Below are positions 21,768 to 29,512 of a stretch of DNA of 32,948 nucleotides, in pieces. Origin of the DNA: Negativicutes bacterium (GTDB lineage: Bacteria > Bacillota > Negativicutes > Sporomusales > JAOACF01); the NCBI GenBank assembly GCA_026417995.1, contig JAOACF010000015.1, forward strand, positions 1 through 32,948, given 5' to 3'. Each line of letters starts with the position of its first letter. Within the stretch, counting starts at the first letter, position 1. The notes beneath the pieces are model-generated. The model had not been told where the DNA came from and did not search any database. It saw only the letters and a program-made list of their open reading frames with translations. A program made the position numbers and the translations under genes.

Positions 21768-23315
21768 TTAATTCCCTCCTGCCGCTTGGGGAGCGCCCTG
21801 CCTGCCGCACGCGGCGAACATTTTGTTAATCGCGCTTACGTAAGCCTTAGCGCTCGCTTCGATAATATCTGTGCTTAATCCGCGTCCGCTGAACGTCATG
21901 CCGTCCTGTTCAACCCACACGGTAGCTTCGCCCAATGCATCCTCGCCCGAGGTGACTGCTTTGATCTGATAATCCTTAAGACAAATGCTGACGCCTATCG
22001 CTTTTTCAATCGCCTTGAAAGTGGCGTCCACCGGCCCATCGCCGCAGCACGCTTCTTCCACTATGCCGCTTGCGCCTTCCAGGCGAACCGAAGCGGTGGC
22101 CAGCGTCTGCGTGCCGCTGACGACATGATGATAGATCAGGCGGTACATTTCAGTTTTAGCGAGCGCCGTATCGGTAACCAGCGCCTCAATATCCCGGTCA
22201 TACACCGTCTTTTTCCGGTCAGCCAGCTCTTTGAATTTGGCGAACAATGCCGTGATCGCCGCCGCATCCAGCTCATACCCCATTGATTGCAGCCGCTCCT
22301 CGAAAGCGTGGCGTCCGGAGTGTTTGCCAAGTACAATACTGCTTTTGCTGGCGCCGACGGTTTCCGGCCGCATAATCTCATAGGTAAACGGATTATTTAA
22401 AACACCGTGCTGATGAATACCGGATTCGTGCGCAAACGCGTTGTCGCCGACGATGGCTTTGTTGGGCGGGACGACAATCCCGCTCAACGTGCTCACCAGG
22501 CGAGAAGTGCGGTAGATCTGCCGGGTATCGATGCGCGTGGACGCCCGGTAATATTCACTGCGGGTGGCTAACGCCATCACGACTTCTTCCAGCGAAGCGT
22601 TGCCGGCGCGCTCGCCTAGGCCGTTGATGCAGCATTCGATTTGCGTAGCCCCGTTCTCAACCGCCGCCAGCGAATTGGCAATCGCCAATCCCAGGTCATC
22701 GTGGCAATGGGCGCTAATGGCCGCCTGCTCGATGCCGGGTACGTTATCGCGGATATAGCGGATCAGGCGGCCGAACTCTCCGGGCGTCGTGTAGCCGACA
22801 GTGTCAGGCACATTGATGACGGTGGCCCCGGCGCGGATTGCCGCCGCGTATACCTGACAGAGAAAGTCCCAGTCGGAACGCGAGGCGTCTTCCGCGGAAA
22901 ATTCCACATCCTCGACAAATTTCCGGGCATAATTAACGGCTGCTTCGGCTGCATCCAAGACTTGTTGCCGCGTCATCTTCAGTTTATAGGCGAGGTGAAT
23001 GTCGCTGGTAGCGATAAAGGTATGAATGCGCGGGCGCTCGGCTTTCCTGATCGCTTCGGCCGCAATTTCAATATCTTTTTTTTCGGCCCGCGCTAAAGCG
23101 GCGATGACCGGCCCTTTAACCTGAGCGGCTACGGCGCTCACCCCGGCAAAATCGCCGGGAGAAGCCACCGGAAAACCGGCCTCGATCACATCCACGCGGA
23201 GCTTAGCCAGCGCCTGCGCGATTTCAATCTTCTCGGCCATTTCCAGATTAACCCCTGGCGTCTGCTCGCCATCCCTCAGCGTAGTATCAAAGATCATAAT
23301 TGTCCTCTGTGCCAT
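21768..23315 (-). CDS. leuA: 2-isopropylmalate synthase
   Basis: This 515-residue enzyme commits 2-ketoisovalerate to leucine. The TIM-barrel catalytic domain opens with [18 protein letters not shown] and includes [28 protein letters not shown] (HxH metal ligands), [18 protein letters not shown] in the variant [14 protein letters not shown], and [13 protein letters not shown]-terminal LeuA dimerisation/regulatory domain (about 390-510) implies leucine feedback. I start at the ATG at 23315, 8 bases after GAGGAGG; the longer ORF runs into leader RNA. It is the first gene after a riboswitch/T-box leader. Confidence 0.97.
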
Positions 23316-23379: not shown

Positions 23380-23419
23380 AAACAGAAAGCCCCTATTGAC
23401 CTTGCTGGTCAATAGGGGC
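23380..23419 (-). terminator. Regulated terminator of the leu T-box
   Basis: On the minus strand GCCCCTATTGACC and GGTCAATAGGGGC form a perfect 13-pair stem (23419 to 23389) with a 5-base loop, followed by TTTCTGTTT. Its 5' arm follows the T-box sequence, the standard competing terminator. Confidence 0.93.
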
Positions 23420-23596
23420 GGGGTGTGCCGCGGTACCACCCTACTTGGGTCTCATTCCAATAACGCCTGGTCAGCGCTTCCGCCTACCGGTTTTCAGCGG
23501 AAGAGTTCCTGGGCGAGCTTCACCTGCAGCGCCGCGCCGGTTCGCACCTCCACCGGCTCTCTGCAACGGACGTCCTGCGGCTTTTTCCCAGTCATT
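23389..23596 (-). promoter_or_regulatory. T-box leader sensing tRNA-Leu (specifier CUC)
   Basis: On the minus strand the core AGGGTGGTACCGCGGC lies at 23427-23442; the bulge TGGT would pair with an ACCA tRNA end. Stem I shows AGAGAGCCGGTGG and GCGAACCGG, closed by CTGGG...CCCAG. Just inside that base the loop reads AAG-CTC-G, so the specifier is CUC at 23515-23517. That pairs with the GAG anticodon of tRNA-Leu and matches the downstream leucine genes. When uncharged tRNA-Leu binds, the antiterminator should form and transcription continue. Confidence 0.9.
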
Positions 23597-23626
23597 ACCG
23601 ATACCACTATGCAACTTGCAAACAGT

Positions 23627-23673
23627 AAAAAAATCCTGCGGGAAATTTCTCTTTACAAGAAACTTTCCGCAGG
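23627..23673 (-). terminator. Regulated terminator of the first (ykkC-class) riboswitch, leu leader
   Basis: On the minus strand CCTGCGGAAAGTTTC (23673-23659) pairs with GAAATTTCCCGCAGG (23649-23635), 13 of 15 positions, then ATTTTTTT. The 5' arm overlaps the conserved 3' end of the aptamer, so ligand binding and termination should be mutually exclusive. Confidence 0.88.
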
Positions 23674-23765
23674 GTCTTTTATACCCACGGTGTAGCGCAA
23701 CTCATCGCCGCGCTTTGCATCGCTCGGACCAGACCTGACACCAGCGGAACCCTAGATGCACTTTC
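23667..23765 (-). promoter_or_regulatory. ykkC-class riboswitch aptamer, probably ppGpp type (subtype 2a), leu operon
   Basis: On the minus strand the RNA contains the ykkC hallmarks in order: CTAGGGTTCCG, GGTCCGAG, then TACACCGTGGGTATAAAAG followed by ACCCTGCGG. GCATC/GATGC and GCGC/GCGC helices can form between them. ykkC RNAs comprise guanidine (type 1), ppGpp (2a), PRPP (2b) and further subtypes. Type 2a is the one known upstream of branched-chain amino acid genes, where ppGpp turns expression on. The subtype is inferred from context, not from diagnostic residues. Confidence 0.82.
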
Positions 23766-23790
23766 TTGGTATTTTTGTGATTTTGTATAC

Positions 23791-23818
23791 ATTATACCAT
23801 GACAAAAGTCCATGTCAA
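23791..23818 (-). promoter_or_regulatory. Promoter of the leuACDB-ilvD operon
   Basis: On the minus strand TTGACA (23813-23818) and TATAAT (23791-23796), both perfect, are 16 bases apart. The transcript would begin near 23784, just before the aptamer, giving a leader of about 470 bases. Confidence 0.88.
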
Positions 23819-23909
23819 TAGCATGCAATCTATTTTTCGCGATTAAATCTTGCGGCTTCGGCGCGGCTGCCACCGGATGTTTTATGATTATGATCTAATT
23901 TTATGGCGC

Positions 23910-23937
23910 TTGTCAGGCAGGTCTATTATCGTAGAAT
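23910..23937 (+). promoter_or_regulatory. Promoter of the GH26-like gene
   Basis: TTGTCA (23910-23915) and TAGAAT (23932-23937) are 16 bases apart, 44 bases before the chosen start codon. Confidence 0.6.
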
Positions 23938-23980
23938 GACGAAATTTGTTATCTACTATTTCAGCCGAGGTACATGCTGC

Positions 23981-25585
23981 ATGAACAAATTACTAAGCCA
24001 AATAATTGCCGCTTCGCTGGCAGCAATGCTGCTGAGCACGCTGCCGCCCTCGCTGCAGGCATCCGCCGGCGGCACAGCTTATCTTATCAACGGCATACCC
24101 CAGGCGGAAAACACCGCCTCGCCGCAAGATGATCTCAAGGCAATCCTGTCTTGCAATGAGGAAATGGTCCAATATACCGATTACGCTCACGGTTATAGCC
24201 TGCTCATCCCCTCAGGCATGCAGCCCGACTTGACTTACGGAACGGTGCGCACCGTGTTTGCCGGTCCGGAAGCGCAGATCGAGATCTATTACGACGACTT
24301 CCGGGGAACAATCTCAAACGCTGACGCTTATGTGTATTACGGCAACCGTCCGCTATACCAGAGCCCGTATTTCACGGTGACGGAAGACGTCTGGGAAGAA
24401 GTGAACGGCATTCGCGTGCATCTGCTGTCCTGGAACCGGCCGAAGCTGGCCAGGCTGGCTAATGATAAAAACCATTACGTCAGTGCAGAATTTATCAAAA
24501 ACGCGCATGAAGTTTACACCGTATTCATCAAATCCACCCGGCCTTTTGCCGCGTATCGCACAATAATTGACAGTTTTTTCTTAACCGGCAGGCAGGGTAC
24601 GCCCCGCAACTACCCGGCCCTAGAAATGCCGCACAGGCGCCTGAGCGCGGAAACAAGCGCTTTTTGGCAGAAATACTTTGCGCCGGAAGCGTCATTAACC
24701 TGGGGCGTATTTGAGCCATCCGCGCCGGAAAACTTGAATTATCTGGCCGACCTGGAAAACAAAGTGGACTTCAAGTTTCCCTTTCTGCTGCGCTATCAGG
24801 GCATCGATGAGCAAGCGCCGGTGCGCGGCTTGCTGAAAGCCTTTGCTGAAGGGCGCTATGTGGAGCTTACGCTGCAGACCGTCCTCGCGGAAGAAGCCAA
24901 TGCGCTTGTACATACCGAACGATCCAACGCACATTTGCTCTACGCCATTTTAGACGGTCGCTACGACGATTATTTTCATGCCTATGCCCGTAAACTCAAA
25001 GATTTCGGCCACCCCGTACTGTTCCGCCTGAATAATGAAATGAACGGTGACTGGTGCTGGTATTCCGCCTATTATACCGGCAAGGACACGGAAATATACA
25101 AGGCGGTTTGGCGGTATATCCACACCATCTTTGACCAGAACGGCGCCGATAATGTGCTCTGGGTCTGGAACCCGCACGATGTTTCCCGCCCGGACTTTAA
25201 ATGGAACCATGCCTATATGTATTATCCGGGAGATGAATATGTAGATATTATCGGCCTTACCGGCTATAATACCGGAACTTACTTTCCCGGGGAGCACTGG
25301 CGCGAGTTCGCCGCTATCTATGACCCGCTCTACGCCGCCTACAGCAGCGTTTTTGCCAAGCCGTTCATGATTACCGAATTCGGTTCCAATTCCACCGGCG
25401 GCAATAAAGTTGCCTGGCTTGAGACTATGTTCGGGCAAATCCGCCGCTACCCCAATATTAAGGTCGCCATCTGGTGGAATGGCATCGATTATGACCGCGC
25501 CGGCAACCCCGGCCGCGTTTACCTGCTGGATGAAAGCCAGGAAACAACAGCCGTTTTCCGCAAGCGACTGCAGGAATTTCGTTAA
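23981..25585 (+). CDS. Secreted GH26-like glycoside hydrolase (beta-mannanase family)
   Basis: The 534-residue protein has a signal peptide (MNKLLSQIIAASLAAMLLSTLPPSLQASA) and an N-terminal domain of unknown role (about 55-205). A GH26-like catalytic barrel runs from about 235 to 530. The acid/base Glu is in FRLNNEMNGDWCWYS (E353) and the nucleophile Glu in FMITEFGSNS (E466), with the aromatic WNPHDVSRPDFKWNHAYMYYPGDEYVDIIGLTGYN stretch between them. Such enzymes cut mannans or related beta-glycans; here an exopolysaccharide or cell-surface glycan is as likely. The start with the signal peptide lies after a promoter; the longer ORF start (23903) would lie upstream of it. It sits alone between two amino acid operons, so no pathway link is evident. 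Confidence 0.85.
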   Translation: MNKLLSQIIAASLAAMLLSTLPPSLQASAGGTAYLINGIPQAENTASPQDDLKAILSCNEEMVQYTDYAHGYSLLIPSGMQPDLTYGTVRTVFAGPEAQIEIYYDDFRGTISNADAYVYYGNRPLYQSPYFTVTEDVWEEVNGIRVHLLSWNRPKLARLANDKNHYVSAEFIKNAHEVYTVFIKSTRPFAAYRTIIDSFFLTGRQGTPRNYPALEMPHRRLSAETSAFWQKYFAPEASLTWGVFEPSAPENLNYLADLENKVDFKFPFLLRYQGIDEQAPVRGLLKAFAEGRYVELTLQTVLAEEANALVHTERSNAHLLYAILDGRYDDYFHAYARKLKDFGHPVLFRLNNEMNGDWCWYSAYYTGKDTEIYKAVWRYIHTIFDQNGADNVLWVWNPHDVSRPDFKWNHAYMYYPGDEYVDIIGLTGYNTGTYFPGEHWREFAAIYDPLYAAYSSVFAKPFMITEFGSNSTGGNKVAWLETMFGQIRRYPNIKVAIWWNGIDYDRAGNPGRVYLLDESQETTAVFRKRLQEFR

Positions 25586-27490: not shown

Positions 27491-28988
<1,498 letters not shown>

Positions 28989-29010: not shown

Positions 29011-29057
29011 AAAATAAAAAAGCCCCTATCGGCAAGTCTCTGCTTGCCGATAGGGGC
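29011..29057 (-). terminator. Regulated terminator of the ilv T-box
   Basis: On the minus strand GCCCCTATCGGCAAG and CTTGCCGATAGGGGC form a perfect 15-pair stem (29057 to 29022), followed by TTTTTTATTTT. Confidence 0.93.
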
Positions 29058-29285
29058 GGGTTACCGCGGTACCACCCTACATTGTACTCATGCCGCCGGT
29101 TTGGGCCGGCTCCGGCTAACGCCCGGATCGCGTCGCACTCTTATGTATACCGCATTTCAGCATACAGTATACAGTTCAATAGCGAAGTTCATGGGTGACG
29201 TAACGGCGTCAACTCCCGCACCGGCTCGCAGCGTCCACCGGCTCTCTGTGGCAGGTTAAATTGCGCTTTAATCCCAATCATCACT
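29022..29285 (-). promoter_or_regulatory. T-box leader probably sensing tRNA-Val (specifier GUC)
   Basis: On the minus strand the core AGGGTGGTACCGCGG lies at 29064-29078, with bulge TGGT. Stem I shows AGAGAGCCGGTGG and GCGAGCCGG, closed by TGGG...CCCA. At the position matching the CUC of the leu leader the loop reads TAC-GTC-A, giving specifier GUC at 29197-29199, a valine codon pairing with anticodon GAC. Valine is the sensible signal for ilvNCB. The stem I loop is less tidy than in the leu leader, so the specifier is less certain. Confidence 0.85.
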
Positions 29286-29312
29286 TGTTGCCGTATAAAT
29301 TTTTCAGTATAC

Positions 29313-29366
29313 AAAAAGACCCTGGTGAAGTTCTCTTGTTTTTGCAAGAAACCTTCCGCAGGGTCT
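29313..29366 (-). terminator. Regulated terminator of the first (ykkC-class) riboswitch, ilv leader
   Basis: On the minus strand AGACCCTGCGGAAGG (from 29366) pairs with an arm ending in AGGGTCT (to 29317), about 18 of 22 positions including TTCTTG/CAAGAG near the loop, followed by TTTTTG. As in the leu leader its 5' arm overlaps the aptamer end. The two terminators differ in sequence but keep the same position. Confidence 0.85.
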
Positions 29367-29456
29367 TTTATACCCACGGTGTAGCGCAACTCATCGCCGC
29401 GCTTTGCATCGCTCGGACCAGCCCAGCCATAGCTGCGGAACCCTAGATGCACTTTC
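29356..29456 (-). promoter_or_regulatory. ykkC-class riboswitch aptamer, probably ppGpp type (subtype 2a), ilv operon
   Basis: The same motifs as in the leu leader occur in order on the minus strand: CTAGGGTTCCG, GGTCCGAG, TACACCGTGGGTATAAAAG, ACCCTGCGG. The stretch from GGTCCGAG to the 3' end is identical to the leu copy over about 66 bases; only the hairpin between GGTTCCG and GGTCCGAG differs. ppGpp is the expected ligand because of the downstream ilv genes. A PRPP or guanidine aptamer is the alternative. Confidence 0.82.
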
Positions 29457-29483
29457 TTACGCCAAATGTGTTACTTTGTATAC

Positions 29484-29512
29484 ATTATCCCAGCGCGCCG
29501 GACTTTTGTCAA
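29484..29512 (-). promoter_or_regulatory. Promoter of the ilvNCB operon
   Basis: On the minus strand TTGACA (29507-29512) and GATAAT (29484-29489) are 17 bases apart. Transcription would start near 29478, giving a leader of about 490 bases. Confidence 0.85.

Follow-up and report, generated by a model that had tools for sequence, protein, structure and literature searches.

The ilvB-leu leader of B. subtilis is an example of the tRNA-Leu class of T-box leaders. Tandems that combine a T-box of this specificity (T-boxLeu) with a ppGpp aptamer have been published as AND gates (PMC5912903, Fig. 6C legend; PMC6031431; PMC9481103), and a table of such tandems holds 15 with the ppGpp aptamer first and 16 with the T-box first, all listed as T-boxLeu (PMC9481103). 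In a native ppGpp riboswitch, a ykkC aptamer of subtype 2a, ppGpp stabilises the closing helix against a terminator, an ON-switch layout that has been measured (PMC10687018). The ykkC subtypes differ in a few residues: at the position of C49, a pyrimidine in subtype 2, guanidine aptamers have an A, G96 is more than 97% conserved in PRPP aptamers and missing from ppGpp aptamers, and a G96A change turns a PRPP aptamer into a ppGpp aptamer (PMC6031431).

Here we analysed a stretch of 32,948 nucleotides from a Negativicutes bacterium (contig JAOACF010000015.1; hereafter the window), in which a ykkC-class, probably ppGpp-responsive riboswitch and a tRNA-Leu T-box had been predicted in the leader of a leu operon from the sequence. 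The original prediction placed the leader in a class of ppGpp aptamers beside T-boxes known from other Firmicutes, and this agrees with the literature (PMC5912903, PMC9481103).

Results

The leu leader spans 23818-23315 of the minus strand and consists of a promoter, a ykkC-class aptamer, terminator 1, a T-box and terminator 2, followed by leuA. The leuA gene (21768..23315, minus strand), encoding 2-isopropylmalate synthase, is the first gene of the operon and scores above the cut-off of NCBIfam NF002086/TIGR00973. The operon has the order leuA-leuC-leuD-leuB-ilvD and reaches 17268; leuC, leuD, leuB and ilvD also pass curated cut-offs. The promoter had been described as complete, and indeed the sigma-70-type site at 23791..23818 (minus strand) matches the consensus at 12 of 12 positions (TTGACA, 16 bases, TATAAT) and has an extended TG. 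The transcript would start near 23784.

Ten promoter-like sites were found in the region compared with 2.6 in shuffles, the leu promoter being the best of them. Between it and leuA, and hence between the aptamer and the T-box, no other promoter-like site was found on the minus strand, so a transcript from the leu promoter must cross both terminators. A glycosyl hydrolase family 26 gene (23903-25585, plus strand) stands between the ilv and leu operons. Since this gene is on the opposite strand, it diverges from the leu promoter, and leu forms a transcription unit of its own.

The aptamer (23656..23768, minus strand) was assigned to ykkC subtype 2a, with ppGpp as the predicted ligand, from its RF00442 match, residue tests, P0 covariation and a constrained fold. 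The RF00442 match (23766-23665) covers the full model (1-107) with 57.5 bits and an E-value of 1.3e-9 and, together with the motifs, establishes the ykkC aptamer of the original prediction; the score falls short of the 63-bit gathering score, as do those of most subtype-2 copies from relatives. The single ykkC model reported by Rfam 15 is Guanidine-I (RF00442), which the PRPP and ppGpp subtypes match too. The PRPP-type copy coupled to a guanine aptamer in the host genome also matches it. The name ‘Guanidine-I’ thus carries no weight for the ligand. The original prediction had counted a best match to guanidine-I against ppGpp. Literally, this is what the covariance search returned, along with the expected ykkC match, but because only one ykkC model was reported, the outcome is invalid as a test and does not refute ppGpp.

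We judged the ligand class by published residue criteria, applied to ~128 RF00442 matches from 28 genomes of the host order, with the residue numbering placed on the leu copy by motif and not by alignment to a solved native ppGpp aptamer. The sorting residue of the leu aptamer, equivalent to residue 49, is C23722 in the motif CCGAGCG, which is the pyrimidine of subtype 2 and not the A of guanidine-I; the 10 clear guanidine-type relatives have CCGAGAG. The C equivalent to the one that pairs with the guanine of ppGpp (C75 equivalent; C75/C69) is at 23692 in the ACACCG motif, which is kept in the subtype-2 set. At the site where PRPP aptamers (subtype 2b) have G96, and where subtype 2a has either no residue or A, C or U, the leu aptamer has no G and instead a single bulged U at 23671 (CCC-U-GCGG). 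In the 27 PRPP-type copies, which directly follow a guanine-aptamer motif, the sequence is CACCG(A/G)N GGG...CCCNG apart from a single 5'-side exception, and all 25 T-box-tandem copies in the host order, the leu copy included, read CACCGUG...C(U/C)CUGCGG and have C at the sorting residue. By these residue tests both guanidine (C, not A, in CCGAGCG) and PRPP (specific bulged G absent) were rejected as ligands.

Folded with its helices enforced, the leu aptamer forms a four-way junction with P1 at 23760-23756/23720-23716 and a one-base bulge (U) in the last helix, and this one-base non-G bulge geometry is common to the ppGpp-binding G96A aptamer (PMC6031431). The ends of the aptamer are joined by P0 (23768-23762/23662-23656, 7 pairs), an add-on helix diagnostic of the PRPP/ppGpp subtypes. 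At the P0 columns -8/+2, -9/+3 and -10/+4, pairing through A-U, G-C, C-G and G-U is seen in 41-42 of 43 distinct strand pairs. This level was reached by 0 of 2000 shuffles, a test that is inflated by the kinship of the sequences, although changes on both sides are present nonetheless. Among the genes downstream of ppGpp-type copies are ilv and leu genes and genes resembling those for BCAA transporters and glutamate synthase, the same kinds that have been published for subtype 2a (PMC5912903).

Terminator 1 (23627..23673, minus strand; -22.6 kcal/mol) has a stem at 23673-23635 and a U7 tract at 23633-23627. Direct folding shows this hairpin, which a generic terminator scan did not list because of an internal mismatch. 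Consistent with the overlap that had been predicted, the 3' strands of two aptamer helices, P0 and the last one, make up its 5' arm. In the ligand-free leader, folding favours the terminator over the enforced aptamer by ~9 kcal/mol, so the ligand should turn the gene on. The overlap between terminator 1 and the aptamer 3' strands was found in 24 of the 25 tandems of the host order; in the remaining one, the automatic choice picked another hairpin. The native ppGpp riboswitch has the same terminator-overlap layout (PMC10687018).

Among the features compared, we found no difference between the leu aptamer and known subtype 2a ppGpp riboswitches (native Cba, PMC10687018; G96A, PMC6031431): they share the pyrimidine, the ligand-pairing C, P0, the one-base bulge in place of the PRPP-specific G and a terminator built from the aptamer 3' end. 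Since the diagnostic residues, P0 covariation, gene neighbourhood and aptamer-overlapping terminator all indicate it, the ligand, as judged from sequence, is most probably ppGpp rather than guanidine or PRPP, which supports the ligand named in the original prediction.

The T-box leader (23411..23604, minus strand) matches the complete RF00230 model (1-219), including stem I and the T-box sequence, with 96.5 bits against a gathering score of 93 and an E-value of 3e-20. The CUC (Leu) specifier, already recognised in the original prediction, occupies the specifier slot of the Rfam model at 23517-23515, and the antiterminator sequence GGGUGGUACCGCG is at 23441-23429 (both minus strand). The host genome has a tRNA-Leu(GAG) with discriminator A and the end ACCA, complementary to the UGGU T-box bulge. 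The second terminator was likewise where it had been expected, at 23389..23419 (minus strand), where both the scan and folding gave a hairpin of 13 pairs with the tail UUUCUGUUUG. Its U-tract is imperfect (UUUCUGUUU), so the second gate may leak. The full model match, CUC, the UGGU bulge and the overlapping terminator are common to tRNA-Leu T-box leaders (RF00230) such as that of B. subtilis ilvB-leu; unlike these leaders, the leu leader has a second sensor preceding the T-box.

A second, paralogous tandem, unmentioned in the original prediction, is located 5.7 kb from the leu tandem in the window, on the minus strand at 29512-29022, before ilvN-ilvC-ilvB. Its promoter (29484..29512; TTGACA, 17 bases, GATAAT) matches 11 of 12 consensus positions. 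It is followed by a second ykkC subtype 2a aptamer (29354..29457; RF00442, 59.9 bits, E 3.8e-10), again with ppGpp as the predicted ligand, and by a terminator 1 (29317..29366; -27.2 kcal/mol, then U5) whose 5' arm is common to the aptamer 3' end. The second T-box (29049..29290; RF00230, 72.6 bits, E 8e-16) has a GUC (Val) specifier at 29199-29197 in the Rfam alignment slot and ends in a terminator 2 of 15 pairs (29022..29057). The ilvN gene (28464..28988), encoding the acetolactate synthase small subunit, is above the NF008864/TIGR00119 cut-off, as are ilvC and ilvB above theirs, and the operon reaches 25797. All these features are on the minus strand. The host genome also has a tRNA-Val(GAC) with discriminator A and the end ACCA. 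We rejected UUC or CUU (after a later GAA) as the specifier: both the Rfam alignment and the CCC stem place GUC in the slot, and GUC is conserved there in six further ilvN leaders, one of them outside the host order. The leu and ilv aptamers are ~90% identical and each other's closest relatives among the tandems, whereas the two T-boxes are 53% identical, which suggests that the aptamer part was duplicated or converted.

The specifiers of the 25 tandems in the host order are CUC (18), GUC (6) and UUC (1), and four more tandems from Negativicutes outside this order have CUC (2), GUC (1, ilvN) and AUC (1, liv-type transporter). In total, the 29 Negativicutes tandems comprise 20 Leu, 7 Val, 1 Ile and 1 Phe, counts that were drawn from related genomes and do not represent independent events. 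The six GUC tandems of the host order precede ilvN/ilvC operons in five families (G000, G002, G008, G019/G020, G027). The Ile T-box (L132 6355-5820, same as L208) and the Phe T-box (L045 2304-1785) each follow a ppGpp-type aptamer and precede a liv-type amino-acid ABC transporter. The specifier slot is consistent in the Rfam alignments of the Ile case, the Phe case and four more Val cases. No match to the leader was found in the plasmids searched.

Further ykkC copies were observed in the host and its relatives. A third tandem of a ppGpp-type aptamer and a T-box (Leu, CUC) in the host genome (L003 1501-1927 and L196; G000:C167) stands before a gene of the methylisocitrate-lyase/PEP-mutase family and a DctP/DctM TRAP transporter, a puzzling target for a gate that would respond to leucine starvation. 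At another host locus (L004 1501-1716; G000:C134), a guanine aptamer and then a PRPP-type ykkC aptamer precede an NCS2-like permease gene (named by eye), the same arrangement as in the guanine/PRPP tandem riboswitch that forms an IMPLY gate (PMC5912903). The IMPLY gate is a ykkC-fold tandem like the leu leader but, unlike it, has one expression platform for both aptamers and regulates purine genes. A ykkC aptamer before a glutamate-synthase amidotransferase-like gene (L005 1501-1623; G000:C159) contains CCCUGGCGG, in which the PRPP/ppGpp discriminator may be a G, and its ligand is therefore less certain than those of the ilv and leu copies. In Sporomusa-like genomes, ppGpp-type aptamers with an A at the discriminator position and no T-box stand before a gene that, judged by eye, resembles a phenylacetate-CoA ligase gene; they lie ~2-3 kb upstream of the ilv tandem (L092, L095, L096, L109, L111, L112, L114, L116). 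Four other ppGpp-type aptamers without a T-box (L021, L034, L040, L042) precede a conserved gene starting MxEFSLPFGxGT.

Discussion

Together, our results confirm the leu leader as a real and functional-looking element. Its two elements lie in one 5' UTR, each with a separate terminator, and the host genome encodes a RelA/SpoT protein (737-aa open frame). Very likely, the leader is a ppGpp ON-switch followed by a tRNA-Leu T-box, two independent attenuation switches acting in series with AND logic. The sequence, structure, residue identities, covariation, terminator overlap and the tRNA and RelA/SpoT genes were observed directly, and from them we infer the ligand identity, the switching direction and the AND logic.

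We then propose a model for the two-input control of the operon. Binding of ppGpp to the subtype 2a aptamer would stabilise P0 and the last aptamer helix. The 3' strands of these helices would be withheld from the 5' arm of terminator 1, and read-through would occur only at high ppGpp. The CUC specifier of the T-box would then pair with tRNA-Leu(GAG), and the uncharged ACCA end would pair with the UGGU antiterminator bulge to prevent terminator 2. Full transcription of leuACDB-ilvD would require the general starvation signal together with uncharged tRNA-Leu. In the cell the two inputs are linked, since ppGpp synthesis is itself driven by uncharged tRNA, and the response could therefore appear graded.

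One alternative is that the aptamer is a guanidine-I riboswitch and that guanidine together with uncharged tRNA-Leu induces the leu operon. Guanidine-I is the best and sole Rfam riboswitch match of the aptamer, and in a 2025 survey T-box/‘Guanidine’ tandems preceding ilv/leu genes were taken to sense guanidine (PMC12452182). However, the single Rfam 15 model stands for all ykkC subtypes, the diagnostic residue is C and not A, the aptamer has a covarying P0, a helix that guanidine aptamers lack, and the downstream genes are not guanidine genes, which makes this alternative extremely improbable. Since the residues of the leu aptamer argue against guanidine, we doubt the guanidine reading in that survey; judged by sequence features, Rfam-based surveys that describe such tandems as ‘guanidine plus T-box’ probably mislabel ppGpp switches. 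It is also quite unlikely, if somewhat less so, that the ligand is PRPP or a nucleoside diphosphate (NDP; subtype 2c), the other ligands of ykkC subtype 2. Their aptamers have the subtype-2 residue and P0 in common with the leu copy, and the host genome does contain a true PRPP-type copy, directly downstream of a guanine aptamer at L004. The flipped-out PRPP-specific G is nevertheless missing from the leu aptamer, its 5' side is CACCGUG and not CACCG(A/G)N (PMC6031431, PMC5912903), and its gene context is BCAA and not purine, a comparison that covers the PRPP side of this alternative.

The ppGpp and tRNA-Leu inputs might also be additive, with either giving substantial expression, or the aptamer might be a decaying relic with only the T-box regulating. 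The inputs are correlated through RelA, and the AND logic of the leader is deduced from its architecture. On the other hand, two intact terminators follow one another and no promoter-like site separates them, and 24 of the 25 tandems of the host order retain the aptamer together with its terminator overlap; we therefore hold this possibility to be unlikely, though less remote than a different ligand. Serial AND control by ppGpp and tRNA-Leu remains our preferred model. We also considered the ppGpp switch as a stand-in for a missing CodY, which was rejected because CodY is present in 26 of the 28 genomes of the host order, including the host.

The leu leader is one more member of the published tandem class. 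It has the same elements, separate terminators, leucine T-box and BCAA genes as the published ppGpp/T-box(Leu) AND gate (Sherlock et al. 2018; PMC9481103), in the order of the 15 ppGpp-first cases, and nothing essential is different. The ilv leader differs from the tandems in that table by its valine T-box, a combination absent there. No Val, Ile or Phe partner was found in the PMC9481103 table or in the literature searched, the original ppGpp riboswitch paper (PNAS) lying outside this coverage, and the partner specificity is a modest extension of the class.

It is probable that the ppGpp switch of Negativicutes serves as a portable first gate that is joined to T-boxes differing in their amino acid (Leu, Val, Ile, Phe). 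If so, each operon would couple a general alarm to the specific tRNA signal that fits it, and the window shows the Leu and Val forms together. The leu and ilv leaders would be natural two-input RNA gates with a nearly identical general input and different specific inputs, and the pair would allow the published, experimentally unconfirmed AND prediction to be tested with the ligand fixed and the tRNA swapped.
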